Source: a virus
Reading direction: 5' to 3' (one strand)
IMG/VR virus record: IMGVR_UViG_3300035698_015452
Span: 1-21,945 of that record
DNA: 21,945 nt
Both the position numbers and the translations under genes were made by a program. The notes beneath the pieces are model-generated. The model saw only the letters and a program-made list of their open reading frames with translations. It searched no databases and had not been told where the DNA came from. Below, one piece after another: positions 2,602-21,559 of the stretch; position 1 is the stretch's first letter; each line of letters opens with the position of its first letter.

Positions 2602-2664
2602 TTATGCTGTTAAGTCATTATATTTAAGTCTTTTCCCTACCATATTACACATAATGTCCATCAT
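2602..2664 (-). CDS. Possible 20-residue micro-ORF overlapping the portal stop
   Basis: The portal stop TGA lies inside ATGATGG, so a new frame starts in a 4-nt ATGA overlap and runs 20 codons (MMDIMCNMVGKRLKYNDLTA) to TAA. The overlap is typical of translational coupling, and similar ATGA junctions occur at 17958-17961. The peptide is very short and resembles nothing I know, so it may be chance. It would otherwise fill most of the gap between portal and the restriction-modification gene. Confidence 0.2.
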   Translation of the reverse strand: MMDIMCNMVGKRLKYNDLTA

Positions 2665-4676
2665 TTGAAACATTGTATCTGATGTTCTTGTGTTATGCCT
2701 TCCTTATCTTTAAAAGTTAAATGTTGTGAAATATGTTCAGCTATGATTGCTTGTGATTCAGGAGTCAGGCTTTTTTCTTCTCTTACTACAAAATCTGCAT
2801 GAGCTTGTATTTCCATATCATGAGGTTGATTTCTCTCAGCTTGTACTGGTTCTTCACCTCCCATAGCTTCATTCTCTTCATCTATTCTTGTTACTGTCTC
2901 TTCATTCTCTGCTTGTTTTTGACCTTCTTTCTCTGCTTCCTCATCAATCCCAAATACTTCATTGATATCATTTACTCCCAAAGAAGTTAAAGTTTTTTCC
3001 AAACTAAACTTAGCCATTGCTTGTTTATCAGGTGACATTTGTTCTAAAGGAAGAGAAATATAATTATTAACAGCTTGCGTTATTAAGTTAGCATTATTTT
3101 GTTCTGCTACACTATTTTTTAGTCTAGTTGAATCTTTCTCTATTTGAATTTCGACATCAGCTAAAGGGAATGGTCTGATAGATTTAAAATTGTTTTTATT
3201 CTTTTTCCCAGTAGGTATATTCTTAGACTTACTCATAAATTGAGCATTCTGATACAACCTTATTCTCATTATTTGTTTAATGAAATATTCGATATTTCTT
3301 AGCTTCTGATTAAAAGTCTTATTACCTACTTCAGCACCTAAAACAGCCTCCCTTGCTGTTCCTGCATTAGCTCCAGCCTGAGATTGTTCCCCTATCCCAC
3401 TCACTTTACTAGCTTCTCCTTCTAGATATTGAATATCATTAAAAATACTAGCTGTTACATCTGGAATAGCTAACGTAGAAGGAGGTGGGGCTTGTGAACC
3501 TCTTTCCATCATAACTATAGCTCCTGCCTCATCAGTTTCTAAAGCATCAGGATTCTTTACACTTCCTTCATACATTATATTCTTAGGTCTTAAGACTTTA
3601 TCAACATTTTTCATTCTTTGTCTGTAGAATGTATTGATAACAGCTTGTAATCCCTGTACTTGTTCAACTTCACCTACCCCGTAATACCAAAGCGGATTAT
3701 TTATATCGTGACAATCTGCAAATGGTCTATAAGGTTTTTTAGCTTCATCCTGATAAAAATTCTCTTCAAATCTAATTAACTCAAACCCTCCACTTGCACC
3801 AGCTACACTGATAATATACTCAACTGGAGTTTGTCCTTTTTCAACTTCAAATAATCCATAATAATGTATTACAGTTTCAACTTTAGCGAGTTCGGTAATG
3901 GTTCCAGTATCTACTCCCTCTCCATCTTCAATAGTTTCACTTTTCTTGTCATCAACATTAGGATTATTAGGAACATCTTCTAAATATTTTACTGAATCTA
4001 AATTGAAATATAATCCACTAGTTTCAAGATCAGTTCTTAATATATTATGTTCTTTATAAGCTAGCCCAGGAGCTTTCTGGAAGTTTTGATACTTTGGGTC
4101 TACCATCCAATCAAATACTGGTATATGTTTCATTCCCTCAGTATCTCTGGCTATGTATTTTTCCATTATTGGTTTTCCTACTGGATCAAACATATCCTTT
4201 CCTTGTTCATCTTTTTTAGTTCTTTGTTTTCTTACAATATCAGTTCCTACAAAAACAGCATGCGTTCCAAATGTAAAAGTATAATCACCAACTGACTTAA
4301 CCGTAGCGTCAGTGTCATAATCATCCCACTGAAAATCTAAAAGATCTTTAGCTTCATCAAGCCTGCTTAATTCTTTTAAAGGATTTCTTGGAATTAGTTG
4401 ATATTTAGGTCTTTGAGCGAATACATTTGCCTTTACTGTTTGAATATTTTTAAAAGAAGTATTAATGAGCGTCTTGTTGTCTTTTTCAACTTTATTTAAC
4501 TTCTTAAATTCCCACGCTATCTTTTGAATACTTTTCATCTTCTCCATAAAATCATGCGTCGAAGTCTCCCAATTTGTGAAATAATCCTCAACCCATTTCA
4601 AAGCTCTTTCCTGTGTTTCTGTATAAACTGGGTTTGTTACTGTGTTTTCAGTCGTATCTGTAGGCGTTTCAGGCAT
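2661..4676 (-). CDS. Portal protein
   Basis: This protein of about 671 residues matches the portal (head-tail connector) proteins of podovirus-like phages. These form the dodecameric ring at the capsid vertex through which DNA enters and leaves. Supporting segments are the central NNPLWYYGVGEVEQVQGLQ helix region, followed by RQRMKNVDKVLRPKN, then GSQAPPPSTLAIPDV, and the GIGEQSQAGANAGTAREAV segment typical of the portal stem/crown region. The C-terminal 90 residues are Glu/Gln-rich and probably disordered or helical. A TTG 21 nt upstream would extend the frame, but that codon lies inside the 21-bp dyad at 4690-4710, so the ATG at 4676 is the better start. The large terminase lies just upstream, as expected for packaging genes. 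Family assignment is by pattern recognition; no homology search was possible. Confidence 0.85.
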   Translation of the reverse strand: MPETPTDTTENTVTNPVYTETQERALKWVEDYFTNWETSTHDFMEKMKSIQKIAWEFKKLNKVEKDNKTLINTSFKNIQTVKANVFAQRPKYQLIPRNPLKELSRLDEAKDLLDFQWDDYDTDATVKSVGDYTFTFGTHAVFVGTDIVRKQRTKKDEQGKDMFDPVGKPIMEKYIARDTEGMKHIPVFDWMVDPKYQNFQKAPGLAYKEHNILRTDLETSGLYFNLDSVKYLEDVPNNPNVDDKKSETIEDGEGVDTGTITELAKVETVIHYYGLFEVEKGQTPVEYIISVAGASGGFELIRFEENFYQDEAKKPYRPFADCHDINNPLWYYGVGEVEQVQGLQAVINTFYRQRMKNVDKVLRPKNIMYEGSVKNPDALETDEAGAIVMMERGSQAPPPSTLAIPDVTASIFNDIQYLEGEASKVSGIGEQSQAGANAGTAREAVLGAEVGNKTFNQKLRNIEYFIKQIMRIRLYQNAQFMSKSKNIPTGKKNKNNFKSIRPFPLADVEIQIEKDSTRLKNSVAEQNNANLITQAVNNYISLPLEQMSPDKQAMAKFSLEKTLTSLGVNDINEVFGIDEEAEKEGQKQAENEETVTRIDEENEAMGGEEPVQAERNQPHDMEIQAHADFVVREEKSLTPESQAIIAEHISQHLTFKDKEGITQEHQIQCFK

Positions 4677-4689
4677 GGTTATATTGTTA

Positions 4690-4710
4690 ATGAACAAATT
4701 TAGTGTTCAA
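4690..4710 (-). promoter_or_regulatory. Operator-like dyad upstream of portal (site A)
   Basis: On the minus strand the site reads TTGAACA, CTAAATT, TGTTCAT: 7-bp half-sites with one outer mismatch around a 7-bp spacer. It ends 13 nt before the portal ATG. Its upstream flank (to 4722) is also shared with site C at 16300-16322, 22 of 23 bases being identical. The same dyad occurs twice more in the window, each time in front of a gene. I infer a binding site for a dimeric regulator, or a phage-specific late promoter element. Confidence 0.55.
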
Positions 4711-4730
4711 TATCAATATACAATATCATT

Positions 4731-4826
4731 TCAAAATAAACAAGATTTGCGTTTACTTAAGAACTGCCGTCTTATAACAAACATTGCATCAATTAGTTTC
4801 ATATTTATTTTAATAAGTTGTTCCAT
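4731..4826 (-). CDS. Possible 31-residue micro-protein between terminase and portal
   Basis: An ATG directly abuts the large-terminase stop (TAG-ATG) and opens a 31-codon frame beginning MEQLIKINMKLIDAMFVIRR and ending SCLF-TGA. The N-terminal half is amphipathic or hydrophobic and the C-terminal half is strongly basic (RRQFLSKRK). The abutting start and the empty space it fills suggest a coupled gene. It has no recognisable relatives and a composition compatible with chance. Confidence 0.3.
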   Translation of the reverse strand: MEQLIKINMKLIDAMFVIRRQFLSKRKSCLF

Positions 4827-6356
4827 CTAAAAACCTGTTATAGGATCTCGGTAAGGGTCGGTTGAGTAAGAAGGTGGAGTATAACTGCTAGTAGTGTTGG
4901 GTTTATGACTCACCGCTTGCATCCTTACCGTGTCTAAAAAATGACTAGCTTCATCATGTAAAAACCCATCATATTTACCTAATTTATCATTCCATTTCTT
5001 TCTATATTTTCTAGCCATTCTTATAAAAATAGAGCATTTATTTTTATCAAACCAATATTGACTGAAATATTTTCTTACATCTCTCACCCCTTCAACAACA
5101 GCTTTATTAGGAGCAATTTCTACTCTTTTAAGATTTAATTCAGGATAATTAACTGATTCTTCAAGAAAATCATCATACGTGCTTTTTTTATCGCTTAATC
5201 TTCTTGTTCTGGCATCCCAAGGCAAAATATGCCCACCATATTTCTGATAACCCTTTTCTTTCATAACTGCAAAATAATAACTTAATTTCTTGTCATTATT
5301 ATGATAACAATCAATCCACCTAATTTCTTTTCCAAAATATTGTACAAATCCTATTACTAATTCATCACTTAGTCCTAAATCCCAATAAGTATATACGGGA
5401 AGAGAAGGATCATAAGGAATAGAACATATTCTATTATCATTATCCATCTGCATCATCTCCTCTTTATACACAGCCCCCTCAATTTGTTGTTTAAAAGCTT
5501 CCTCAGGTGTTGTAGGGTATTCTTGGCGTAATAATGCCCAGTTCTTACCTAAGGTCAACCATTTCAAATATAAATAAGTAATCTCAATGTCTGTCAAACT
5601 ATGTTCTTTCTGATATTCTATGAATTTATCTGGCAAACCCTTTATGGGTTCTTTGATGTTATTCATTTCCTGTTCATCCCATTGCCAATTATAGAAGTGT
5701 GCTTTCCATTCCATAGGGTTGGTTGGCTCTTTCCCCCAAGCATCCCAAAACATATCATAGAAAGCTCCTTCTTCTCCTTCTGCTGTTGATTCTATGTCTA
5801 CACGACCTCTATTAACCGCTGGAATTGATCCTGTCAATATTTCTTTTGCTTTATGCGGGTATAATAAACATATCTTCCCAAACTCTGATACATGAAGTCT
5901 CTGATAAGTTCCAGAACGTCCAGAAGTTCTTACATAAATAGAACTCTCTGAACCATCACCAAACCCTAGTTTTAGAGTATTTTTATTATCTTGATCTAGA
6001 GTAAACCCATTCTTTATTATTGCTGGTGAATTACTAAAAGCATACTTTATCTTATTCTTAAATATATCTGTTGCTGAATCTTTATCATAAGAAATAAACA
6101 AAGAATCTCTGTCTTTGTTAAACATAGTCTCATCTAAAATATCAATTGATATGTCTGTAGTAAATCCTAATTGTCTGCTCTTCAATATGATATTCCTATT
6201 GTGAAAGTTCTTAGCATAATGAGCCTGTGCTTTATTCCTAGTAAATACTACTTTATCACCGTCTTTATTCTTCACATAGTAAAAACGCCCCATCCTCCAT
6301 TCTTTATTAGCTAACTTTGTAAGTTGATCTTTATTCATAGTGTGTTTGTTATTCAA
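4827..6356 (-). CDS. terL: Terminase large subunit (packaging ATPase and nuclease)
   Basis: This 509-residue motor protein pumps DNA into the procapsid through the portal and cuts the concatemer. The ATPase half has a deviant Walker A (LKSRQLGFTT, residues 58-67), a Walker B with catalytic glutamate (RLHVSEFGK, E158) and a coupling motif (ESTAEGEEG, from 189). The QEYPTTPEEAF element (278-288) is usual in this family. The RNase H-fold nuclease half shows YWDLGLSDE (D326), a PWDAR segment, and HDEASHFLDTVR near the end (D475), giving plausible metal-binding acidic residues. A second ATG six codons in (6338) has the AACAAA-type leader seen before other genes and could be the true start. Its usual partner, the small subunit, is about 11 kb away at 17268-17678, which is unusual. 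Confidence 0.93.
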   Translation of the reverse strand: MNNKHTMNKDQLTKLANKEWRMGRFYYVKNKDGDKVVFTRNKAQAHYAKNFHNRNIILKSRQLGFTTDISIDILDETMFNKDRDSLFISYDKDSATDIFKNKIKYAFSNSPAIIKNGFTLDQDNKNTLKLGFGDGSESSIYVRTSGRSGTYQRLHVSEFGKICLLYPHKAKEILTGSIPAVNRGRVDIESTAEGEEGAFYDMFWDAWGKEPTNPMEWKAHFYNWQWDEQEMNNIKEPIKGLPDKFIEYQKEHSLTDIEITYLYLKWLTLGKNWALLRQEYPTTPEEAFKQQIEGAVYKEEMMQMDNDNRICSIPYDPSLPVYTYWDLGLSDELVIGFVQYFGKEIRWIDCYHNNDKKLSYYFAVMKEKGYQKYGGHILPWDARTRRLSDKKSTYDDFLEESVNYPELNLKRVEIAPNKAVVEGVRDVRKYFSQYWFDKNKCSIFIRMARKYRKKWNDKLGKYDGFLHDEASHFLDTVRMQAVSHKPNTTSSYTPPSYSTDPYRDPITGF

Positions 6357-6397
6357 ATAACACTATATATTGAAATATTTACATTTTCAAAGGATTA

Positions 6398-6418
6398 TTG
6401 AACACTAATCTTGTTCAA
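6398..6418 (+). promoter_or_regulatory. Operator-like dyad before the lone plus-strand gene (site B)
   Basis: This is the most perfect of the three dyads: TTGAACA, CTAATCT, TGTTCAA, with exact 7-bp half-sites. The conserved CTAA of the spacer points it along the plus strand, opposite to sites A and C, and the gene it faces (6475-6696) is the only plus-strand gene in the window. It also lies 42 nt upstream of the divergent large-terminase start, so it may control both. A TGGTAGAAT extended -10-like element at 6443-6451 follows downstream. Confidence 0.6.
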
Positions 6419-6474
6419 AACCTATGATTGTTATTTTAAAGATGGTAGAATGTGCAGCAATTTAACCAAACCTT

Positions 6475-6696
6475 ATGTTTCAAAAAATCTTTAACGCCGT
6501 GATTGTTTTATTAATTATTACTTTGTTTTTATCTATCCCAAAACAAATTAAACCAACAGATAATTCAAATCTATTTACCTCTTTAAAGGAAATGTCTGTT
6601 GCTAATAATGGGTTAATAGAAAACAATCAAAATGCCATTATAGGGTTGTACGAAACCATGCAAGAGGCACATAATTATTATCTTAGCTTAGATTGA
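6475..6696 (+). CDS. Small single-pass membrane protein, only plus-strand gene
   Basis: This 73-residue protein starts MFQKIFNAVIVLLIITLFLS, giving one hydrophobic N-terminal segment (about residues 7-22) without a lipobox or obvious signal-peptidase site. A hydrophilic tail of about 50 residues with helical character follows (NNGLIENNQNAIIGLYETM) and ends LSLD. The topology suits a membrane-anchored protein with an exported or cytoplasmic tail. In phages such proteins can be holin antagonists, spanins or superinfection-exclusion factors, but nothing here decides between these. Its 3' end overlaps the convergent 779-residue gene by 19 nt. It has its own dyad (site B) and an extended -10-like TGGTAGAAT upstream. 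Opposite orientation inside a late module is typical of an independently controlled accessory gene. Confidence 0.6.
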   Translation: MFQKIFNAVIVLLIITLFLSIPKQIKPTDNSNLFTSLKEMSVANNGLIENNQNAIIGLYETMQEAHNYYLSLD

Positions 6697-9017
6697 GTAA
6701 AAACTCTTATCAGAGTTCTGGCAAATTCATTATCAATACCTCTCAAAGCAGTCTTCAAAGCGTTTTGACCTCCTGATATTACTGCATCTGCACCAACTAA
6801 ACCTAAGACACTTTTAATAGTTTCTACAGGCTGTTTAAATGCATTAAACATTAACCCTGTAATTGCTGTTTTACTTGTATTAAAGTCTCCTGGAATTGAA
6901 TCAACATAATCAACGAGTTCCATTAATATTTCCTTTTGCTCTCCTGGTAATAGTTCATCGATAAACTCGTCATCAAGTTTATTCATTTTAGACAATAAGC
7001 TTTTTGCACTAAATCCTTTCGTTGACTGAGCAAGATCATTCAGATATACAGATTTTGCTTGGTCAAACGTTTTTTCACTAACTAATTCCTTAACTTGTCT
7101 TAAATCTTTTATCTTATTCTTATTAAAGAATTTAGATATTGCTTTCTCTGGATTCTCTTTTAAATTCTTAGTTAAAGCTTTATTTATAACACCCTTGAAC
7201 TGTCCATACTGAGATTGCAAAGCTCCATAAACTTCTGATAAGTTAGGGTCAACCTTTTTGATCCCAGCTTGTATTTGAGTTGATATTTCTCCTTTAAGTT
7301 TACCCATTATACGACCTATGTTGTCTCCTATTGCCTCACCCCCAAACCCTGTTTGAGTATTTATGAATTTAGTAATATCATTAAAGTCTTTTAGTGATGT
7401 AGCTTCTCCAACTTTCTTATACACATCATCTATAAGGCTTTTCTCTCCTCCTGTTAATGATAATCCAGCATCATCTACCTCTTTCAATATAGATCCTTGC
7501 AATGCTGACTTGATTTGACTATCTCCTTGCTTAGCCCCTCCTTTTGCTGTGTTGTAGATGTCTTTTAGTTGGTATTTAGTTATATCTCCTTTTCTTAAAA
7601 GCTGTCTAGTTTTAGCATCAAATTTATTTAAATTTTTAGAAGAACTAACTAGAGATTTGCTTACTTCTTTTTCCATGCTTATCAGTTTTCGTAAACTAGT
7701 ATTAATGTTTTTAAATTCTGTAGTATTTCTGATTTTATCAGGAACATTTAAAAGACTTCTACCTCCCTTTGATTTCACAAAATCATTCAATTCATTAATT
7801 TTTAAAAATACTAATTCTGAATATTTATTTTGTTTAGGTAGTACACTATTAATAAACTCATCAGCACTCTTAAACTTACTAGCTTCTTTAGCTAAAGGTT
7901 CTAAATCTGAATGAACCGCCACTTTTCCTGCATCATCAACCAAACTAACACCTTTCTCAACTTGTTTGACTTTATCAAACAAATCTCCGAATGCTTTTTG
8001 ACCTGACTTCTTATATCTAGTTAAATCATCAATGAATGATTGCCCTACTTGAGACCTCTCGCCTCCTGTTCCTATAAAATCTTGAATAGCTTCAGTTCCA
8101 GCTTTCAATCTTGCTTTTCCTTTAGTAAAAGCTTCTACGAATGGAGTTTGTTGTAATATACCTTCTATTCCAGCAGCAGCACTATCTTGTCCTGCTAATT
8201 GTCCAGTAGATGCTTTTGGTAATTTAAATTTCTCAATCACTCTAGCGAATTTACTAACCAAAGGTTTCCCGAACTTTTGAGCTAACTTACCTAACCCTCT
8301 TCCTACAGCTCCACCCACTAATTCACCAGCCCCACCAATAACAGCTTCCTTTCCTATTTCACCAAGTTCACTTGGTAACTGTTTCAAACCCTCAACTCCT
8401 GTCTCCCTAACTCCTAATAAACGACCAGTTGCTTGTTTTAATGCAGTACCAGCAGCGGCACCTCCAGCGGCTCCAGCAACCCCAACAGGGACAGACCCTA
8501 TTCCAGCACCAGCTACAGCACCCCCTATACCTCCTAGAGTAGCACCAGCAACTACAGGTATGTCCCCAGCTAAATCAGCTAAGTCACCTAAACTAAACCC
8601 TTTTTCATCTGCTCTAAATCTCTTGCCATCTTTTGATAAAATAATATTTCCTTCTTCATCTTTTTCTGTTTCAAATCCTAGTTCTTTAAAAAGACTCTCT
8701 TTACCCCCTTCGCTAGCAAAACTAGCTTTAAATCTTTGACCAAAAGTTAACGGAGATTCTTCTTCTATAGGAATTTCTGGAACTTCTTTTTGTACTTCTG
8801 GAGCAACTGCATTCTTATACATATTACCATCAGAACCTTTTAATTGTTGTTGTTTTTCTTCTTTCTCTCCCAACACCGATAATTCTTCTTTATTTATTTG
8901 CTCTCTATATTGTGGGTATTGAGAAATTATCTTAGACGTTAAAGTGTTATCATCAACATTAGCATATTGAGGATATTTTTGTTTGATCTTTTTTGAGAAA
9001 TCAGCTATTGAAACCAT
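6678..9017 (-). CDS. Large internal virion / DNA-ejection protein
   Basis: This 779-residue protein has the layout of podovirus ejection proteins. The N terminus carries two YPQY elements in a short helical repeat (FSKKIKQKYPQY at 7-18, IISQYPQY at 30-37). After an acidic linker comes the FGQRFKASFASEGGKESLF segment, then GFSLGDLADLAGDIP, and then a Gly/Ala-rich hydrophobic stretch at about 147-192 that could insert in a membrane. The remaining roughly 580 residues are lysine-rich and mainly helical. In related phages such proteins leave the capsid with the DNA and help form a channel across the host envelope. It is the last gene of the tail module and ends convergently with the plus-strand gene. 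No lytic transglycosylase motif was seen. The role is inferred from layout and position. Confidence 0.6.
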   Translation of the reverse strand: MVSIADFSKKIKQKYPQYANVDDNTLTSKIISQYPQYREQINKEELSVLGEKEEKQQQLKGSDGNMYKNAVAPEVQKEVPEIPIEEESPLTFGQRFKASFASEGGKESLFKELGFETEKDEEGNIILSKDGKRFRADEKGFSLGDLADLAGDIPVVAGATLGGIGGAVAGAGIGSVPVGVAGAAGGAAAGTALKQATGRLLGVRETGVEGLKQLPSELGEIGKEAVIGGAGELVGGAVGRGLGKLAQKFGKPLVSKFARVIEKFKLPKASTGQLAGQDSAAAGIEGILQQTPFVEAFTKGKARLKAGTEAIQDFIGTGGERSQVGQSFIDDLTRYKKSGQKAFGDLFDKVKQVEKGVSLVDDAGKVAVHSDLEPLAKEASKFKSADEFINSVLPKQNKYSELVFLKINELNDFVKSKGGRSLLNVPDKIRNTTEFKNINTSLRKLISMEKEVSKSLVSSSKNLNKFDAKTRQLLRKGDITKYQLKDIYNTAKGGAKQGDSQIKSALQGSILKEVDDAGLSLTGGEKSLIDDVYKKVGEATSLKDFNDITKFINTQTGFGGEAIGDNIGRIMGKLKGEISTQIQAGIKKVDPNLSEVYGALQSQYGQFKGVINKALTKNLKENPEKAISKFFNKNKIKDLRQVKELVSEKTFDQAKSVYLNDLAQSTKGFSAKSLLSKMNKLDDEFIDELLPGEQKEILMELVDYVDSIPGDFNTSKTAITGLMFNAFKQPVETIKSVLGLVGADAVISGGQNALKTALRGIDNEFARTLIRVFTQSKLR

Positions 9018-9035
9018 GATTATTTTATTATTAAT

Positions 9036-11111
9036 TTAAAAACCTAAACCTAAAGGGTCTACATCTCTTCCTGATAACTGTTCAGGGTTAATATCTAGAT
9101 TAAGAGGATTAATTTTCTTTTCTTTTTGAGATTGTTGTTGAGCTTGTTCTTGAGGACTTGCTTGTGCTTTCTCTAACCCGACAAACTGCCTTAAACCTTT
9201 CTCATCTCCTAGAGCAAATTGAGAGATTGTAGCCCGCATAGTTTCGTTAAAATCTTGCTCAAATTTTTCTATAGATTTATCAAATTGTCCGTCCTGTTGC
9301 TCAATATTTGGAATATTTCTAGCTAACCTATCGGCTTCTTGCTCAGAAACTGCAGCCCCTGAAATTTGCTTAATATATTCAGATAAAGACTTCCCTGTAA
9401 TAGTTTCTAATTCATTAAAATCATCTAACCCTTGATCTATACCAATAAACCTCCTAGCCCTTGAGAATCCTGTCTCAATCCCCCCAGTATTCACTGTTTT
9501 TTTCAACTCTTTCATTTCGTCAATTCTGTTTCTTAGCTGAGCTAAATCCACTAATTTATCATAATCTTTGTCATCAAAGTTTTTAGTCTTAATAAATTTA
9601 AGAGTGTCAAATCCTTTATCAGCAAGAGAGGATAAAATCTCAGTTCTAGTTTTTAAATTAACACTTCCTTTAGAGAGAGTAATAGGATCTTTCAAGGCAT
9701 TAGCTTCTAATCCACTTAATTGAACGCTTTCTCCAAACCTATTAATAAATCCTCCACTTTCTCCTGATGTCAATTCACCCGTTCCTGCATCAAAACCAAA
9801 GCTACTTCTCCCGACTGTTCCTGTGGTAGAAACACTACCTTTAGCTAACCCCTGTCTCAACTTCTGAACATTCAACTCATGCAACTCTAATTCCCTTTCC
9901 TCCCTTCCTTTCTCAGCTATTACAGATCTTGTTTTTTCTACCATACTAATAAACGCCCCTCTCTTCGCTTCATTTATTTTTGCTGTATTACCAGCATACG
10001 CTTTCTCTATCTCAAGTTTTTTATTCATGTAATTCATCCCAATATTAGAAGCTGTATTGAGAGCTGTTGTTTCAATATCAGATCTAGCAAGAGAAAAACC
10101 TCTAGCTGTGAAATTATCACTAGCTACAATATCAGATACTTGTTTATCTCTCTTTTCCTGTTTTCTACTAATAACCTTATTATAATCATCATTAATTCCT
10201 TGTAATACTTTTTGTCCAGCTGGATCACCAGCGGAACTACCTAACATTATACGAGCCTTTTTAAGAGCCGTTGTTTGTGCATCTCTTAAATCTGCCACCT
10301 CATCATCAACACGATCTTCTAAGTCTTCTTTAGAACGACCAGAGATGTATTGTGCTTCGTCTTCTTGTAATTCTTGACCTACCAAAGCCCTTTTTCTTCT
10401 TTGCTCTAACATATCCATATCATTCCCAAACCTATCTTCCAAAATACCTCTTTGATCTTGTCTCAAAGCAACTTGATTATTAAAATCTTCATTCAAACTA
10501 TCTTCTGCAAACTTAAACTGTAATTGTTCAAGTGTTTTTGGGTCATCTAGATCGAAACCCTGTCTTGCTGCAAATGTAGCTATATCTCTATCAACTCCTT
10601 TTAATTTAGGATCATAATCAACAAATTCAGTTGTAAGATTAGAGTCAAATGTACTGGAGCTAGTAGCAACTTGTGTTTTAGGAGTGCTAGCTACTTTTAT
10701 CCCTAAATCACTTGCCTCTTTCACTCCTCTATCTCTAGTCTCAAAATCTTCTGAATTAATCTTTTCCCCTACGTTTCCATAAGATGATTTAAATTCACCA
10801 CCACCTCCAAGTCTCTCTAATTCTCTTCTATGAGCTTTTGTATCTTTTCCGAACTCAGCATTAAAAGCTCCTCTTTGTGCCTCATTAAACCTATCAGAAA
10901 CAACTCCACGTCCTTTTATCTCAGACGTTGAAGCTCTAGCTGGTAATGGTGCTGGAGAAGTAAGATCATCAACTGATTGATTAATCCCTGTTTTAGAAGC
11001 CGTAAATACTGGATTCTCTTTTACATTAATATCAGCTACTTTCTGTCTACCATTGAAATTAGTTATTTTTCCTCCACTCGTTTTTGTTCCTCGAAATTTT
11101 CGTATTGGCAT
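9036..11111 (-). CDS. Large coiled-coil structural protein, probable ejection protein
   Basis: This 691-residue protein is highly charged, with long stretches predicted to be helical or coiled-coil (about residues 230-430, rich in D/E/R/K/Q, including GKDTKAHRRELERLGG earlier and EKGREERELELHELNVQKL later). Low-complexity Gln-rich sequence lies near the C terminus (QASPQEQAQQQSQKEKK). It has no transmembrane segment or enzyme motif that I can identify. It lies 18 nt upstream of the 779-residue gene and 3 nt from the 297-residue gene, so the three are almost certainly co-translated. Position between fibre-like genes and the membrane-interacting protein suggests an internal core or injection protein. 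A function in virion assembly is an inference from context only. Confidence 0.5.
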   Translation of the reverse strand: MPIRKFRGTKTSGGKITNFNGRQKVADINVKENPVFTASKTGINQSVDDLTSPAPLPARASTSEIKGRGVVSDRFNEAQRGAFNAEFGKDTKAHRRELERLGGGGEFKSSYGNVGEKINSEDFETRDRGVKEASDLGIKVASTPKTQVATSSSTFDSNLTTEFVDYDPKLKGVDRDIATFAARQGFDLDDPKTLEQLQFKFAEDSLNEDFNNQVALRQDQRGILEDRFGNDMDMLEQRRKRALVGQELQEDEAQYISGRSKEDLEDRVDDEVADLRDAQTTALKKARIMLGSSAGDPAGQKVLQGINDDYNKVISRKQEKRDKQVSDIVASDNFTARGFSLARSDIETTALNTASNIGMNYMNKKLEIEKAYAGNTAKINEAKRGAFISMVEKTRSVIAEKGREERELELHELNVQKLRQGLAKGSVSTTGTVGRSSFGFDAGTGELTSGESGGFINRFGESVQLSGLEANALKDPITLSKGSVNLKTRTEILSSLADKGFDTLKFIKTKNFDDKDYDKLVDLAQLRNRIDEMKELKKTVNTGGIETGFSRARRFIGIDQGLDDFNELETITGKSLSEYIKQISGAAVSEQEADRLARNIPNIEQQDGQFDKSIEKFEQDFNETMRATISQFALGDEKGLRQFVGLEKAQASPQEQAQQQSQKEKKINPLNLDINPEQLSGRDVDPLGLGF

Positions 11112-11114
11112 AAT

Positions 11115-12008
11115 TTAAAATGTTACAAATCGTTGTAATGAACGCTGTCTTCCAAAAGATGGAAGCTTTCTAGGTGCTGATATATCTCCTACAGCTTGAG
11201 TTCCTCCTAAAGCATCTCCAGCAAAAGATATTGGTGATGCTCCTGTTGTTTGTTGTGTTGAAGTTGGCGAAGGTGTTGGTGACGCTCCAACTGCTCCTGA
11301 AGATCCTCTTTGAGCTGTAGGATTGTATCTATAATTCTGCAAACCTTTTATATCACTCTGTAACTGTGTTTGTCTACCTGTATCGATAGGAGTACTTGTC
11401 ACACCTCTATTAAACTCTCCTACTGATGGTTTACCTAGCCTTCTTAATTCTCTTCGCTTAGAACTTAACTGATTTTGATTATCTCTAGCTGATTGTTTCA
11501 TTTCTCTTCCATTATTTCCTAAAAAAACATTCGGATCATCAAACCCTGATTGTAATAAATTAGCTTTATCTATTTGAGATTGTTCAATTGGAGATAAGTT
11601 TTTTGATTTGAAAGATCTAGCATTAACTCCAGCTAAACCACCAGCCAATTGTCTAGCCGATCCGTTTCCTGTGCCACTAAAGAAAGCTTTCCTTCCCTTC
11701 TCACTTATTCCACTTAAAGCCCCAAAGAATCCTTGACCTGCTGTATTAGCTCTTCCCTCTATGCTCTTTGCGAAATTAGAAGCTATTGTTATGTCATCAT
11801 CATTTATATTTTCAAATTTATTGATTGCATTTTCTAATTCTCCACTGAAATGTTTTAAAAATATTTCATTCCTATCTGATCCTGGACTACTATTAAACTC
11901 TCTTTGAGCTCTGAATTTATCCATTCCTCTTTTTGGCACAACAAACTCAACTAAACCTTTCTTCTGTTCATTGGTTAATCTATCAAATGTATTTTGTTTA
12001 TCTGCCAT
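11115..12008 (-). CDS. Virion-associated protein of unknown function
   Basis: This 297-residue protein begins MADKQNTFDRLTNEQKKGLV, with a helical first third. It then becomes Gly/Ser/Asn-rich and largely low-complexity (SGTGNGSARQLAGGLAGVNA; a Pro/Thr/Ser tract SPTPSPTSTQQTTG near residue 245) and ends in a basic FGRQRSLQRFVTF tail. It lies between the small beta-sandwich gene (1-nt gap) and the 691-residue gene (3-nt gap). The composition suggests a flexible virion component or an ejected protein. I recognise no family, so the structural role is inferred from its place in the tail module. Confidence 0.4.
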   Translation of the reverse strand: MADKQNTFDRLTNEQKKGLVEFVVPKRGMDKFRAQREFNSSPGSDRNEIFLKHFSGELENAINKFENINDDDITIASNFAKSIEGRANTAGQGFFGALSGISEKGRKAFFSGTGNGSARQLAGGLAGVNARSFKSKNLSPIEQSQIDKANLLQSGFDDPNVFLGNNGREMKQSARDNQNQLSSKRRELRRLGKPSVGEFNRGVTSTPIDTGRQTQLQSDIKGLQNYRYNPTAQRGSSGAVGASPTPSPTSTQQTTGASPISFAGDALGGTQAVGDISAPRKLPSFGRQRSLQRFVTF

Positions 12009-12009
12009 T

Positions 12010-12480
12010 TTAATTAAGATTTAATAATAAAATTCCTGCACCTCCTGGACCTATACCAGTTCCATTTAATGATAAAATATGACTAGCTAAAGCATTAAAA
12101 GTATTTGTCCCTGTTGTCTGATCCCCTCCTAAATAATACATCGCTGTACCTCCAGTATTTCCATGTTCCATAGTACCCCCAAAAGGAAAGTAAATACCAA
12201 TAAAATCACCTGCATTTATATTTAAAGATAAACCTGAAAATGTTCTTTCTGCTCCTTGAGTGACTGCCCCTATTAATACCGAATCAACAGCGGTAAAACT
12301 ATTCGCTCCATTAGGGGTAAAAGTCGCAATCTTCACTCCTGTCATACTGGTTGTGCAATAAATTTTTACAGTATCTATTACACCACTCCTATTTGAAGCA
12401 TTGTTCCCGTCAATTATAGTGTTTTGAGCAAAACCTCCGTCACGAGCAATTGCTGCAGAACCAACATCTATTAAAGCCAT
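12010..12480 (-). CDS. Small beta-sandwich tail-associated protein
   Basis: This 156-residue protein is almost entirely alternating beta-type sequence rich in Gly, Thr, Asn and Ile (GVIDTVKIYCTTSMTGVKIA; FSGLSLNINAGDFIGIYFPF). It has no long helix or signal peptide. That pattern fits a jelly-roll or carbohydrate-binding-like sandwich, as used in phage receptor-binding tips and head decorations. It lies just after the fibre-like gene, 9 nt away, which favours a receptor-binding or tail-tip role. No specific family was recognised; glycine-rich ends (GTGIGPGGAG) suggest a flexible terminus. Confidence 0.45.
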   Translation of the reverse strand: MALIDVGSAAIARDGGFAQNTIIDGNNASNRSGVIDTVKIYCTTSMTGVKIATFTPNGANSFTAVDSVLIGAVTQGAERTFSGLSLNINAGDFIGIYFPFGGTMEHGNTGGTAMYYLGGDQTTGTNTFNALASHILSLNGTGIGPGGAGILLLNLN

Positions 12481-12489
12481 ATCAATATA

Positions 12490-13752
12490 TTATTTAAAAT
12501 CTAAACCTGCACCAATTACTTTTAACTGAGAATTACTATAATGTAAAACAAAAGAATCTTCTGCGTATGCCGTAGTTGTTAATGAAGGAGCTGTTCCTCC
12601 GTCATAATGAGCATATTTCTCTATTGTATGATTTCCTGCTCCTTGATCTGTGATATCTATTTGAGTTCCTGCAAAAGCATTAGCTCTTGTTGTAGCAAAT
12701 TGTATTTCTGTGTCACTGACATAAATTAAATAATAATCAGTACTTGCAGAAAGACCAGCTGGTAAAGTGTCATCTGTGCTTATCTGTACTTTCGTTCCTG
12801 TTGTATAAACCTCTGTTACTGTTATTTGATCACTACCTGCCGTTACTGCTGTAAAAGGTACTGTCTCTGTGGAATATTTCCATGTTACTAATCTTGATCC
12901 TGTTCCATCTTGCTTTAAAGTAAGAAGCTTAATAGCTCCATCATATTCATTACTGATTGCTACTATTCTATTTCCTCCTAAAACTACTACATTCTGTTTA
13001 GCTACTGCAAAATCTACAGTTACTGTTGCTCCATCCACTAAAGTAGCGGGAACAGAAGGCATTCTAGTAACTGCTCCAGATATTCTTTCAAAAGTATCTC
13101 CGTTTGTTGTTAATATATCTCCATAAAGTCCACCAGTTATGAAAGGTCTTTTATCTGATAATGTAGAAATATCTGCACTTGCTGTTACTACAATATTCAA
13201 AGGAATATTTCCTACCGTAAATGCTGAAGTATTTATGCTTAATACTCCTGCTGTTGTCAATTCAATATAGTTTGTTGCGTCATCAGTTAAAGCTTGTCCA
13301 GATACGCCAGCATAAGTTACTAACGCTCCTGTACTATTTAACATAAATTCTCCGCTAGCAATATTTATTGTAATTCCTCCTGCGTCAGTAATAGCCATAT
13401 CTGGCACTGCTGTTGCTGAAGTAATTCCAACTATTTGATTCTCTAAATCATAAAGATCTGTTCTTACTTGATCCCCCCATTCTCCAGCTGGTATACCCCA
13501 GAAATTATCCTGACTATCCCATGTCTGAGCTGTTGACCCATCAAGCCCTCTTCCATCTAAAGTTAAAGTTCCTGCAGTATTAACACTCCATGTTACAACT
13601 TCTCCTGAAGCTATACTTGATTTAAATATTGTTCCCCATCCTGTTTGTTTCAAATCTGTTTTTGCACAAATCAACGATAAAGCACCAACAGTAGTAATAT
13701 CTGCTGTCAATGTTGTTTTAAAATACTCGACTTGTTTTGTTGATACTGACAT
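12490..13752 (-). CDS. Beta-rich tail fibre-like structural protein
   Basis: This 420-residue protein is beta-rich and Thr/Gly/Asp-rich throughout. The middle resembles the repetitive blocks of phage tail fibre and baseplate proteins (DAGGITINIASGEFMLNSTG; TAGVLSINTSAFTVGNIPLN). Residues about 310-385 form a module I associate with phage structural proteins: a VQISTDDTLPAGLSASTDYY core followed by FAGTQIDITDQGAGNHTI. It has no chaperone or endosialidase motif at the C terminus. It follows the propeller-like gene by 10 nt and precedes the small beta-sandwich gene. A host-binding fibre or fibre base is the likely role. The precise position in the virion cannot be told from the sequence. Confidence 0.5.
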   Translation of the reverse strand: MSVSTKQVEYFKTTLTADITTVGALSLICAKTDLKQTGWGTIFKSSIASGEVVTWSVNTAGTLTLDGRGLDGSTAQTWDSQDNFWGIPAGEWGDQVRTDLYDLENQIVGITSATAVPDMAITDAGGITINIASGEFMLNSTGALVTYAGVSGQALTDDATNYIELTTAGVLSINTSAFTVGNIPLNIVVTASADISTLSDKRPFITGGLYGDILTTNGDTFERISGAVTRMPSVPATLVDGATVTVDFAVAKQNVVVLGGNRIVAISNEYDGAIKLLTLKQDGTGSRLVTWKYSTETVPFTAVTAGSDQITVTEVYTTGTKVQISTDDTLPAGLSASTDYYLIYVSDTEIQFATTRANAFAGTQIDITDQGAGNHTIEKYAHYDGGTAPSLTTTAYAEDSFVLHYSNSQLKVIGAGLDFK

Positions 13753-13762
13753 AAAATTATAG

Positions 13763-15358
13763 TTATTGTGGAATTACATAAGCTGGCGGATATCTTTTCT
13801 TACTACTTGGTATAAATATAAAACCATGACTCAATAACGTAAAGCCTTCATTTAGATTTTCTGAATCAAAGACAGTTCTAAAAGTTTGAGCTACGATTGG
13901 TTTCATACTTTGACGATCCCTAATATATTGTACTGTTTGTGTTGAACTCACATCCCCATGCCATCCAGCATTGTGCCAAGAGAACTCATGCCAAGCTCCA
14001 GTTCCAGCACTAATACCAACATTGAAAGTAACTGAGTCAACTAATACTTCACTGTTTGTAATTCCTTTTACCGTCACCTTTATCGTCCCAACTACATTTT
14101 CAAACTCATATTCTTTATATCTAGAAAGTTTATATTGATGAACGTCTTGATTGAGCGGATCATCATTTGTTTCATATGTACCAGTATAAGCTACTCCATT
14201 CTTAGAAAAGGTAGCGTTGAATATCATTATATTACCTAAATTATCCCCAAAGTAAAAGTCTCTTGTGAGAAGATTACTTAATGGTGCTTTGATTGGGAAT
14301 GATCCAAACCCAGAGCAAACAGGTCTTACAGCACTTGAATCTTGTATAAATGGTAAATTCATATCCCATCTTAACTGTTTATCATAAACAAAACTATCTT
14401 GAGCTACTGAAACATAACTCAGAATAAGTTTATTATCATGAAAATATAAAATAGCATCTGCTAAATAATCTAAATTCATATCGGATAATATTGACGGCTT
14501 CACATCAAAAGAAAAATCATTAGTTCTACTCTCGGTTGAATAACCTTCGTAAAACCCTAATGCCCTTACTTCTGACCCAGTGAATACATAAATATAATTA
14601 GCTCCTTTTGTCCAAGATCTTTTTCCAATTGATCCGTAATTAGCTGCTAATACTTTTCTATATAAAGAATTAGTATAATCATAAACTAATTTTACTATTT
14701 TATCTGTTTTTATGACATACGGTGCTTTTAACTCCATTAATAACCCTGTGATACCAGACCCATCATCTTCAAATACTTTGATACTGCTACCACCTGCAAA
14801 ATCAGTATAACTATCAACAGCAGTATAATAAACAGTTGAAGGATTATCTTCATCTCCAGCGTTAAATACTCTATTTACCTCACCGTCTAACATCATCAAA
14901 TCCCCTTTTGTTGTTAAAGAACCTCCATTATCAACTACATTACCTGAACCATCCCATTCCCAATAATGAGACTGAGAAGATAAAAGCATCTTGTCTTGAT
15001 ACATCTGATAAGCAAACTTTTCATCTGCATTTGTAATAGCTGGTTGTGTTGGTAAATCTATCCAATCAGCAGTTACCGTATCGTAATATTTTACTTTCGT
15101 TCCTCCATTAGACATTATTACTTGAGTCCTATCTGACTTCTGAAATAATCCCATATCTTGAACTCCATTTGAAAAATCAGTTTGTTTAGTTCCTAAAATC
15201 TCATAACCCGCTGTTTTAGTTATCGCTCCAGTGGTATCAATCTCACAATCAACCATATTTGGACTCATGCCATCAGGCAACAAATGAGGTGCAATACGAG
15301 TATTCATCCCAAGAGCAAAGTTGTTGGTAGATTTTTGTAGTACGTTTCCTTTAGCCAT
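13763..15358 (-). CDS. Propeller-like tail or neck structural protein
   Basis: This 531-residue protein opens with NNFALGMNTRIAPHLLPDGM and then DCEIDTTGAITKTAGYEI. This is the characteristic start of phage tail-hub/needle-region proteins that read like a beta-propeller, in which ring or tube proteins sit below the connector. Short repeated blades are suggested by recurring Y-x-x-x-D-x-x-x-W/V blocks (VKYYDTVTADWIDL; DKMLLSSQSHYWEWDGSG; DKQLRWDMNLPF). It starts 3 nt after the adaptor-like gene, which matches the adaptor-then-tail-tube order in podovirus tail modules. An equivalent of tail tubular protein B (T7 gp12-like) or a P22 gp10-like protein is plausible. It is shorter than T7 gp12, so the assignment is tentative. 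Confidence 0.5.
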   Translation of the reverse strand: MAKGNVLQKSTNNFALGMNTRIAPHLLPDGMSPNMVDCEIDTTGAITKTAGYEILGTKQTDFSNGVQDMGLFQKSDRTQVIMSNGGTKVKYYDTVTADWIDLPTQPAITNADEKFAYQMYQDKMLLSSQSHYWEWDGSGNVVDNGGSLTTKGDLMMLDGEVNRVFNAGDEDNPSTVYYTAVDSYTDFAGGSSIKVFEDDGSGITGLLMELKAPYVIKTDKIVKLVYDYTNSLYRKVLAANYGSIGKRSWTKGANYIYVFTGSEVRALGFYEGYSTESRTNDFSFDVKPSILSDMNLDYLADAILYFHDNKLILSYVSVAQDSFVYDKQLRWDMNLPFIQDSSAVRPVCSGFGSFPIKAPLSNLLTRDFYFGDNLGNIMIFNATFSKNGVAYTGTYETNDDPLNQDVHQYKLSRYKEYEFENVVGTIKVTVKGITNSEVLVDSVTFNVGISAGTGAWHEFSWHNAGWHGDVSSTQTVQYIRDRQSMKPIVAQTFRTVFDSENLNEGFTLLSHGFIFIPSSKKRYPPAYVIPQ

Positions 15359-15361
15359 TTT

Positions 15362-16288
15362 TTATACATTAAAAGAATTATCTGGTGTATCATTCATATT
15401 AAATATAGGATCTAAAATCCTTTGGTGTTGTAAATATGTCTTGAGTGCAATAAGTTCATTATCAAACTCTTGTTTCTTTAATTGTGTATCTTGTTGAGAT
15501 ATTGCTGCATCTAATTCATAAAACTTCCATTCTAACCCTCTAACAAAAGCTCTCTTTGCCTCATTCCCAAACTCAAGCGTTTGAGAATTAGTGGTAATAT
15601 CCTCATGATATCTGAAGTAAACCATATTTATTTTCTTCCCTGCTGTTGGATTAGTCACGAAATTAATCCTTCCATCTTGTAAATATATAGTTCTTCTATC
15701 TGCTGTAAATCTTCGTTCATTAACAGCTTTATTATCTGAAATAAGCCCATACTTAAGAGTATCAACCATAATATTCTTTCCATCTAATTTCTGAAAAGTT
15801 GAAGGTGCAGGATAATCTAGTTGTTTATCTACTGTCACAAGATCTCCTAACATCACATAACCATCTGAAAGAGTCTGCACTCCACTCTCAACAACCCCAT
15901 CAGCATTAGTAATCTCAAAATAATCAAGTAGTTTTAAAGTACTTGATACCGCTGTAGTTGTGAATGTTCCGTTATTATCATCATCCGCTCCTGATATCTT
16001 AATTAGCAATGAGTCTCCACTAGAGAGGTTATCTACACGAGGTTGATATCCGCTAGCATAAGCATATCTATAAGTCGTTCCTACTGTATTTGTGACATCC
16101 CACTTAGTACTTGATTTGGCATATTGCCCATAAGTACTCCTTAATTCAGGAAAATCTACATCATTTGTAATTAAATCTAATATCGAACTAAATTTAGCTA
16201 ATCTTCTGGCAGGAGTGAAGTATTGCTCAGTGCTATCGTTCAAATTCATCAAGGCTTCATCGTAAATATTTTGACGTGTAAATGACAT
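15362..16288 (-). CDS. Tail adaptor / tubular-protein-A-like protein
   Basis: This 308-residue protein has N-terminal helices (TRQNIYDEALMNLNDS and RRLAKFSSILDLITND) and C-terminal helices (AKRAFVRGLEWKFYELDAAI to about 290). They flank a beta-rich insert at about 50-150 (SSGDSLLIKISGADDDNNGT) resembling an Ig-like or LysM-sized beta module. Helical bundles split by beta elements occur in connector-adaptor proteins (T7 gp11-like), which bind under the portal and begin the tail. As the first gene of the tail module, followed by the propeller-like gene, the position fits. The start codon lies only 1 nt downstream of dyad site C. The identification is from architecture and order, not from a signature motif. 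Confidence 0.45.
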   Translation of the reverse strand: MSFTRQNIYDEALMNLNDSTEQYFTPARRLAKFSSILDLITNDVDFPELRSTYGQYAKSSTKWDVTNTVGTTYRYAYASGYQPRVDNLSSGDSLLIKISGADDDNNGTFTTTAVSSTLKLLDYFEITNADGVVESGVQTLSDGYVMLGDLVTVDKQLDYPAPSTFQKLDGKNIMVDTLKYGLISDNKAVNERRFTADRRTIYLQDGRINFVTNPTAGKKINMVYFRYHEDITTNSQTLEFGNEAKRAFVRGLEWKFYELDAAISQQDTQLKKQEFDNELIALKTYLQHQRILDPIFNMNDTPDNSFNV

Positions 16289-16289
16289 A

Positions 16290-16310
16290 TTGAATAATGT
16301 TAGTGTTCAA
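16290..16310 (-). promoter_or_regulatory. Operator-like dyad at the head of the tail operon (site C)
   Basis: On the minus strand the site reads TTGAACA, CTAACAT, TATTCAA: the same dyad as sites A and B with one mismatch in the downstream half. It ends directly before the ATG of the adaptor-like gene, so a bound protein would cover the translation start region, or the transcript would have a very short leader. The flank to 16322 matches that of site A, 22 of 23 bases being identical over the shared block. Confidence 0.55.
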
Positions 16311-16468
16311 TATGAATATACACTGCGTTTGAAAGTTTATCAATTAATTTAATCCATTGTAAACATATTCTGTATTTTCAACAAAATCACTTACAAAACT
16401 ATTTATACTCTTTGACATAAAGATTTTTTAAAGAAAATAGACAGTCGACAGAACCTCTGAAAATGGAA

Positions 16469-16506
16469 GTAAACAAAGGCTCTGTAAACAAAGGCTCTGT
16501 AAACCA
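16469..16506. repeat. 15-bp tandem direct repeat, 2.5 copies
   Basis: The unit GTAAACAAAGGCTCT occurs exactly at 16469-16483 and 16484-16498, and a partial third copy (GTAAACCA) follows at 16499-16506. A fixed 15-bp period in an intergenic region beside the small-terminase gene resembles iterons or a packaging (pac) binding site. Replication slippage is the simple alternative. Confidence 0.7.
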
Positions 16507-16556
16507 AGTTGCATCTCTATATTATCATAGTGACCCCATAATGTCAATAAAAACAT

Positions 16557-16586: not shown

Positions 16587-16608
16587 GCACTTGCATATTT
16601 CTAAAGAA

Positions 16609-16692
16609 TAAAAACCTTACCTTGTGGGTTGTAATTTGGGAGAGAAATCCCAATAGAGATATGCAATCGCAACTCACAAGATAGGGTTTTTT
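16609..16692 (+). ncRNA. Candidate small RNA / strong stem-loop terminator, plus strand
   Basis: AAAAACCTTA plus CTTGTGGGTTG (about 16610-16631) pairs with CAACTCACAAG plus TAGGGTTTTT (16670-16691). This makes a helix of about 21 bp with one C-A mismatch and two G-U pairs when read as plus-strand RNA. The minus-strand RNA would have two A-C mismatches instead, so the plus strand is the better fold. A second hairpin, TTGGGA/TCCCAA, sits inside. The U-rich tail (TTTTTTATTT, 16687-16696) makes this a workable intrinsic terminator. With the promoter-like pair at 16557 it could define a stable RNA of about 100 nt. It may equally be only a terminator blocking read-through toward the small-terminase genes. 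Confidence 0.45.
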
Positions 16693-16712
16693 ATTTATCC
16701 ATAAAGAACCCT
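16683..16712 (+). other. Alternative hairpin competing with the long stem
   Basis: AGGGTTTTTTAT (16683-16694) pairs with ATAAAGAACCCT (16701-16712) around the loop TTATCC: 12 bp with one G-U pair on the plus strand. It uses the same bases as the closing part of the long stem at 16609-16692, so only one of the two folds can form at a time. Confidence 0.5.
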
Positions 16713-20120: not shown

Positions 20121-20371
20121 GGGATCGTAAAGGAATTTAACCTTTTCGACTTTATTCAGTCTTATTGCCACGATCCCATAATTTTACATTCAGAGCGTAG
20201 GAGGCAGAGACTTTCACACCTGCATGTATTTACCAGCATTAAACTTCGCGTGGATTGGGCAATGGAAACATGTTTTATTATTACAGGGGGAATCACCCCT
20301 TCCTCAAACCTTATGCCCGCACACGTATACTTACCTCCACAATGCGTATTAACCGCCTCTCCTACGCCCTG
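20121..20371 (-). ncRNA. Candidate structured RNA or large structured leader
   Basis: In minus-strand RNA, CAGGGCGUAGGAG (20371-20359) pairs with CUCCUACGCUCUG (20203-20191): 13 bp with one G-U, where the plus strand would have an A-C mismatch. Inside lie a GC hairpin (CCCC/GGGG, 20286-20300) and CATGT/ACATG. Downstream is a three-way junction: GGGATCGT (20177-20170) pairs with ACGATCCC (20128-20121), enclosing GACT/AGTC and AAAGG/CCTTT hairpins. GC content is about 48 % over 180 nt, against 20-27 % in flanking 60-nt blocks. A GTG-start frame covers much of it, but its codon use is GC-rich at the third position, unlike every neighbour. It could be a free RNA or a leader controlling the 64-residue gene and those below. 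It matches no RNA family I can name. Confidence 0.55.
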
Positions 20372-20731: not shown

Positions 20732-21559
20732 TTAAACTACTTTCAATTCATGCTCTGTTATTTCTTTAAATATTTTTTGATCAAAATACTTACAATTTAA
20801 TATTTTATTCTTATCCTCTTTGCTTGCATTATCTATCCAATCCTTCCAAGCATCTTTATAATTAATTACTTTTAAACCACCTTCCTTTGACAATTTTGTT
20901 AATTTAATTTCAATAGTAGGTAAAGAATTAAAAATATCATTCCATTCTTCTTTTTTCACCTTTTTATTAAAAATCATATAGTTTTGTTGGTATCCAATCC
21001 CATCAAACTCATCGCCAATGCAAAATAACATTTTTTCTGACATTCGAATTTTTTTACAGAAATAACAGAATTTACAGGAATCACAGGATTTACAGGAATC
21101 ACAGAAATAACAGAAATCACAGGAATTACAGGAATAACAGAAATTACAGGAATTACAGGAATTACAGAAATCACAGAAATAACAGAAATTACAGGAATTA
21201 CAGGAATTACAGAAATAACAGAAATTACAGGAATTACAGGAATCACAGAATTTACAGAAATCACAGGATTTACAGGAATCACAGAATTTACAGAAATCAC
21301 AGGATTTACAGGAATTACAGGAATTACAGGAATCACAGGAATCACAGGAATTACAGGAATTAATTGAAATGCTCCTATGTCCCCCTCTTCTCTTAATCTT
21401 ACCTTTCTTTTCTAGAGCCACTATCCTTTTCCAGATACCACTTATTCTTAACTTATGATGATCTGCTATCTCCTGTAGCGTTGGAGGTATATCATTATCT
21501 AGAATAAATCCTTCAATATAAGAAAGTGTTTCTTGTTGTTTTGGCGTTACCTGTTTCAT
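20732..21559 (-). CDS. LexA-type winged-helix protein with a 34-unit x-x-Cys repeat and unique C-terminal domain
   Basis: Residues 1-66 align well with the LexA DNA-binding domain: [36 protein letters not shown] and the wing [16 protein letters not shown]. Residues 67-168 are 34 uninterrupted triplets ending in Cys ([24 protein letters not shown]), encoded by a 9-bp tandem repeat. Residues 169-275 are an ordinary, mixed-composition domain ([55 protein letters not shown]). Its last segment is a kind of ending I associate with other phage repeat proteins. No S24 peptidase follows, so it is not a self-cleaving LexA. The Cys spacing could hold metal, form disulphides or mediate assembly. Regulation of early or late genes is plausible from the winged helix. 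Neighbours are small genes of unknown role. Confidence 0.8.
21056..21361 (-). repeat. 9-bp tandem repeat array, 34 units, coding
   Basis: On the plus strand the unit is ACAG[G/A] followed by AATT, AATC, AATA or ATTT; the array of 34 units covers 306 bp inside the LexA-like gene. Variation is almost confined to three positions, so every unit encodes [N/D/K/Y]-[S/F]-C. Because the period is a multiple of three, the other frames are open as well, which produces spurious long frames on this stretch. There are no spacers, so it is not a CRISPR array. Confidence 0.95.
21362..21376 (-). repeat. 15-bp direct repeat, copy at the wing end of the LexA-like domain
   Basis: The minus strand reads AGGAGCATTTCAATT, encoding R-S-I-S-I at the end of the winged helix, immediately before the Cys array. 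The identical second copy is at 20697-20711, 665 bp away, just past the gene's stop codon. Confidence 0.8.

Follow-up and report, generated by a model that had tools for sequence, protein, structure and literature searches.

The window analysed here, a 21,945-nucleotide stretch of viral DNA (IMG/VR record IMGVR_UViG_3300035698_015452), is a genome fragment in which the genes for a portal protein, the large terminase subunit (terL) and terS, together with a tail operon and early genes, lie almost entirely on the minus strand. Three short dyads (sites A, B and C) lie among these genes as follows.

2661-4676, minus strand: portal protein (671 aa), encoded downstream from site A
4690-4710, minus strand: site A, dyad TTGAACACTAAATTTGTTCAT, ending 13 nt ahead of the portal ATG (4676)
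4827-6338, minus strand: terminase large subunit (terL), ATG at 6338
6398-6418, plus strand: site B, exact dyad TTGAACACTAATCTTGTTCAA, flanked by terL (minus) and orf73 (plus)
6475-6696, plus strand: orf73, the only gene on the plus strand, located downstream from site B and encoding a small protein whose N-terminus has a hydrophobic stretch
13763-15358, minus strand: stabilisation-like tail protein, from the second gene in the tail unit
15362-16288, minus strand: gp4-like tail/neck protein, whose gene opens the tail unit downstream from site C
16290-16310, minus strand: site C, dyad TTGAACACTAACATTATTCAA, ending 1 nt ahead of the ATG of the gp4-like gene (16288)
20732-21559, minus strand: LexA-like protein that combines a winged helix with a Cys-rich tract of 9-bp repeats, a candidate binder that the results below leave unsupported

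Searches of IMG/VR with the portal, gp4-like, stabilisation and terL proteins recovered one syntenic relative only, the 39-kb L015, and no closer one. The portal protein matches PHROG 332, a head-tail adaptor family (2e-6), and is 37–38% identical to the L015 portal. The gp4-like protein is 39–40% identical to the product of an L015 gene that occupies the equivalent place in its operon, and the alignment of the two backs the start codon at 16288. The stabilisation-like protein is 45–47% identical to its L015 counterpart and weakly matches an annotated 'phage stabilization protein'. A family search with orf73 gave no match. Beyond the portal gene, positions 228-2579 encode a fused HSDR_N / N6-methyltransferase / specificity-domain protein, whose relatives in Acinetobacter phages and in a human-faecal phage share 41–45% identity with it.

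An earlier note on this DNA had reported three copies of TTGAACA-N7-TGTTCAA, each with a spacer starting CTAA, and no others in the window. All three positions proved right, but the copy at 6398-6418 alone is exact: site A departs from the perfect dyad by one mismatch in an outer base and site C by one inner C/T mismatch. No more dyads turned up in the window at up to 2 mismatches, in agreement with that note; at 3 mismatches the scan gave 7 sites against 2.9 ± 1.7 expected, a number reached in 3 of 100 shuffles. Oriented by their spacers (A minus, B plus, C minus), the sites share the consensus TATTGAACACTAAnnTTnTTCA, with 19 of 22 positions invariant. The sequence TTGAACACTAA is the same in all three, and the direction ascribed to the sites holds. 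Each was also said to face the next gene, which fits the portal (13 nt) and gp4-like (1 nt) genes closely, but the ATG of orf73 (6475) is 56 nt away.

Within positions 1–20700, no 13-mer other than TATTGAACACTAA has three dispersed copies. Since some 13-mer of this kind arises in 8% (order 3) to 18% (order 5) of Markov simulations, the repeat alone is only suggestive, and it is this frequency that would allow a chance likeness of AT-rich intergenic sequence. Further properties of the sites speak against such a likeness. All three dyads are wholly intergenic, as are 8.5% of the 21-mers in the window (0.085^3 = 6e-4), and sites A and C extend into a 35-nt repeat of 86% identity. The right arms match the dyad symmetry at 7/7, 6/7 and 6/7 positions. 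Taken jointly, the right-arm conservation, the presence of three dyads, their intergenic placement and the A/C repeat establish that the dyads are real and beyond chance, and make mere coincidence extremely unlikely.

Differences in the arms among the three sites are all uncompensated, as expected of a site bound by a dimer. The same observation bears on a possible role in RNA, namely a 5' hairpin of the late mRNAs controlling their translation or stability. The sites do lie in or beside likely leaders, and A and B fold as hairpins of 6–7 bp; however, site C does not form one (C-A mispair) and folds no better than shuffles, compensatory changes are absent among the three sites, and a hairpin at the gp4 start codon would hinder a message without a Shine-Dalgarno site. 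A search of Rfam gave no match. We regard an RNA element as very unlikely.

Promoter-like sequences were found next to each dyad:

4711-4744, minus strand: putative portal-unit promoter, TTGTTT-17-TATATT, its -10-like hexamer ending 4 nt before dyad A
6362-6390, minus strand: putative terL promoter, TTGAAA-17-TATAGT (10/12), ending 23 nt ahead of the ATG at 6338
6370-6398, plus strand: weaker promoter candidate on the plus strand, TTGAAA-17-GATTAT (9/12), with its start predicted inside dyad B
16311-16343, minus strand: putative tail-unit promoter, TTGATA-17-TATATT (10/12), its -10-like hexamer 4 nt before dyad C

Just upstream of dyads A and C lies a block, TGTATATT[G/C]ATA, which includes the -10-like TATATT and is identical at 11 of 13 positions; the block is missing at site B. 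The TATATT at site C ends 26 nt ahead of the ATG, and dyad B is located 7 bp upstream of the putative terL -35. The scan of this AT-rich window was no richer in promoter-like matches than shuffled sequence (86 vs 80.8), so it is the A/C repeat and the geometry that carry the promoter calls. The relative L015 carries three near-identical phage promoters of about 50 bp, GGGTTTACTTTCATAAAAATTCAGTATATAAT (L019-L020, IMGVR_UViG_3300033146_000459, positions 20127, 23763 and 27677), in which TATAAT ends about 24 nt before the ATG of genes without Shine-Dalgarno motifs. At sites A and C, where the hexamer pair looks like a sigma70-type promoter, the dyad probably covers the predicted transcription start, which would lie in the left arm. 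Beside site B, an imperfect dyad at 6370-6390, TTGAAATATTTACATTTTCAA, gives a -35-like TTGAAA on both strands.

Several near-identical dyads stand at the putative promoters, called from sequence, of one phage genome, as in a multi-promoter operator set. In our judgement the likeliest reading, at about even odds, is that the dyads are operators of one homodimeric DNA-binding regulator that would coordinate the late units, with site A acting on the portal gene and onward, site C on the tail genes and site B on the divergent region between terL and orf73. We infer binding and promoter function from several features. The sites are near-identical and intergenic, both of their arms are conserved, and they are confined to the 5' ends of late units. 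TATATT stands at an equal distance from the dyad in both copies of the 35-nt A/C repeat, and the distances from -10 to ATG (26 nt at site C, 23 nt at terL) resemble the 24 nt of L015. A long and stable minus-strand hairpin (16590-16700; -28.9 kcal/mol, z -3.8) with a T-rich stretch behind it is probably the terminator of the terS unit and would part it from the tail unit behind site C. A dyad with a nearly equal spacer also recurs in a promoter module of a Saccharibacteria genome (below). The position of the sites thus supports the earlier proposal of one regulator for the late genes: they mark three late units and none of the early or middle ones. Against an operator set count the small number of sites (three, in one 22-kb fragment), promoter-like matches no commoner than in shuffles, the lack of the upstream block at B and the absence of the dyad from the sole syntenic relative.

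At sites A and C, a protein on the dyad would block the start of transcription or early elongation; at B it would overlie the weaker plus-strand promoter just upstream of the terL -35 and could act on both. The likeliest logic would be repression early and release late. It may instead be activation, as the Saccharibacteria module has the dyad upstream of the -35 and not over the start. Either the phage or its host may encode the binder. The arrangement recalls operators of the lambda OR/OL type, where multiple copies of a dimer site overlap the putative starts of separate units, but here there is one 21-bp site per promoter, with an A/T-rich spacer, and late rather than early genes are concerned. 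The CIRCE element of HrcA, TTAGCACTC-N9-GAGTGCTAA, is likewise an inverted repeat near start codons; it differs from the phage dyads in arms and in spacing, and no HrcA is encoded in the window. If the operator reading is true, the dyads provide a control site for late genes in a group of phages that has hardly any sequenced relatives, and also a way to approach by sequence the gene control of Patescibacteria, among which few regulators have been characterised. The dyad can serve as bait to recover the binder from an extract, or as a means of searching for the host.

The conserved block could alternatively be the core of a late promoter, recognised by RNA polymerase carrying a sigma-like factor of the phage or the host, its symmetry being incidental or secondary. 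Its conservation is indeed directional and reaches upstream at A and C, the relative has its own three near-identical promoters, and TTG-18-TAAATTTG at site A also fits the established Bacteroidota promoter form. A promoter has, however, no need of the dyad symmetry in the right arms; site B is without the upstream block, the Bacteroidota-type -7 at site C would be TAACATTA, a poor fit, and only 1 nt separates site C from the ATG, which leaves almost no leader. We hold a core promoter to be possible, though rather doubtful. A Bacteroidota host, suggested by the lack of Shine-Dalgarno motifs and by TAnnTTTG at site A, was considered and rejected, the L015 promoters being of the TATAAT type and site C fitting poorly.

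Lack of conservation in relatives and many copies inside genes had been named beforehand as outcomes that would speak against the late-gene reading. The first was partly borne out, as L015, the sole syntenic relative, is without the dyad at 37–47% protein identity. Copies inside genes were not found in the phage but do abound in several Gracilibacteria chromosomes (below). A pattern search of IMG/VR with the directional motif gave 11 matches, essentially all in reading frames and attributable to chance. With the bare dyad we obtained at least 118 exact matches, of which 108 of the 118 examined were inside genes, mostly as single copies; among the matches listed, no other phage had repeated intergenic dyads. 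A blastn search of the site A region against phages returned nothing convincing.

We also looked for the motif in cellular genomes. The directional form was found in 57 stretches among 85,000 bacterial and archaeal genomes, many of them from Patescibacteria; many of the latter were in genes, which is uninformative, and these were excluded as operators. Among 380 Patescibacteria genomes the exact dyad occurs at 50 sites, compared with 5 for the reversed pattern and 7 when the arms of the palindrome were permuted, a roughly sevenfold enrichment of the dyad class over two controls. Of the genomes singled out below, G383, G392 and G002 were found via the motif, so its presence in them is by selection; selection does not explain why they have more than one copy or why controls are at zero.

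The Saccharibacteria genome G002 (MAG SRR19981124_bin.14) has 22 sites at up to 2 mismatches versus 1 in the control. The sites inspected are mostly directly upstream of a -35, in the arrangement ...CCACCAAAA-[CT]TGAACAAATTTAGTGTTCAA-AGTCTGGACA-N17-TATAAT. They form part of a module of about 100 bp (L197-L211), composed of TTTTGTTGT..TACAACA, CCACCAAAA, the dyad, TGGACA-17-TATAAT and GGAAGGATAGGG, which is repeated before many different genes. The arms are equal to those of the phage, the spacer of the dyad TTGAACAAATTTAGTGTTCAA is nearly that of site A on the plus strand, ATGAACAAATTTAGTGTTCAA, and both are linked to sigma70-type promoters, which in the phage are putative. The two differ in that the G002 dyad lies upstream of the -35 and that G002 genes have Shine-Dalgarno sequences, of which the phage has none.

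In Gracilibacteria the palindrome takes the form TTGAACA-MAWWWTK-TGTTCAA. G383 has 58 sites at up to 1 mismatch versus 0 in the control; across 0.6 Mb of it, TTGAACA is clearly the commonest arm of 7-7-7 palindromes (32; next 12), at a gap of 7 only. Across 192 genomes with control matches in 0, those that stand out (loci L278-L337) have 34 (G383), 36 (G535), 13 (G551), 10 (G392) and 5 (G463) exact copies. Arms, 7-bp spacing and an A/T-rich spacer are shared with the phage, but the Gracilibacteria copies number tens per chromosome, are mostly intragenic or between convergent genes, and are not linked to promoters. On the contigs of G383 that we retrieved, 36 of 51 copies lie in genes and the rest mostly between convergent genes, with an uneven distribution over contigs; in this genome the palindrome is thus no operator. 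The palindrome looks like a chromosome-organisation site of some protein, a separate and testable lead on how these chromosomes are organised. A literature search on the dyad arms or on promoter motifs of Patescibacteria found nothing relevant. These bacterial dyads are more surprising than the putative operator set of the phage.

It follows to ask whether the phage simply carries its host's dispersed palindrome, for organisation, segregation or self-marking, with the sites falling before late genes for lack of other intergenic space. G383 has 58 copies, which on the contigs retrieved lie mostly in genes or between convergent genes, some of its contigs have about one copy per 8 kb, a density similar to that of the phage, and neither G383 nor the phage has a Shine-Dalgarno signal. 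Nevertheless, the phage sites are all at the 5' ends of genes and none is inside a gene. Of the spacer pattern M-A-W-W-W-T-K, site A is a fit, but B and C contain a C where spacers in G383 have only A/T in the middle region. We consider a carried host palindrome unlikely. A host protein as the late-gene switch, with 21-bp sites across Gracilibacteria chromosomes and built into some Saccharibacteria promoters, is a tentative idea to which we give limited credence. It is conceivable, to the same limited degree, that such a switch would be a protein that regulates genes or organises the chromosome and of which the literature searched has no description.

A host among the Patescibacteria is a guess that agrees with the data. 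Shine-Dalgarno motifs are absent from 22 of 22 phage genes, and the signal in G383 is at background level (7%), whereas G002 genes have it. Profiles of the portal and stabilisation proteins found only remote matches in the Patescibacteria samples (2/380, 1/380 and 1/163), so assignment of the host by protein failed; a portal search of genome contigs gave no match.

The earlier note had also remarked that the half-sites resemble those of Gram-positive LexA and proposed the LexA-like protein as a speculative binder. The Gram-positive LexA (DinR) box is CGAAC-N4-GTTCG, and both the inverted GAAC/GTTC half-sites and a LexA-type winged helix are indeed present in the window. The likeness deserves little weight, for the spacing is 9 rather than 4 bp in 3 of 3 sites, none of which forms GAAC-N4-GTTC; the phage sites have, in addition, flanking TT..AA and a directional CTAA spacer, and they precede late structural genes and not SOS genes or the lexA-like operon in the window. 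Upstream of that operon, no dyad was found at up to 2 mismatches in the 157 bp that the window holds before its first listed gene. The protein matches LexA over residues 1–68 only (PF01726 winged helix-turn-helix, residues 1–60; TIGR00498, model positions 1–70 of 203), and a profile search returned no match to the S24 autoprotease expected alongside the winged helix in such a regulator. Directly before the start of lexA in the Gracilibacteria G392, G535, G551 and G383 (L350-L353) is ATACGAAGTGTATACTTCTGTATG or a close variant, a candidate LexA box of these bacteria. As these four genes share another box, LexA is disfavoured as the binder in the dyad-rich Gracilibacteria. With a winged helix only, no operon dyad in the window and a different box in Gracilibacteria, the proposed binder is left unsupported, and the half-site resemblance is the sole remaining support for LexA in the phage. 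SOS-type operators, whether for the phage protein or for host LexA, are thus highly improbable.

Two repeats in the window are of separate note. In the intergenic region with the hairpin at 16590-16700, positions 16469-16508 hold 2.7 copies of the 15-bp repeat GTAAACAAAGGCTCT, adjoining a promoter-like TTGACA-17-TAATAT (16547-16519, minus). Within the LexA-like gene, a 9-bp/36-bp tandem repeat at 21054-21362 is joined to the winged helix and encodes a Cys-rich tract (NSC/DSC/KFC) of about 100 residues; another frame of this repeat is open too (IPVIPV...).
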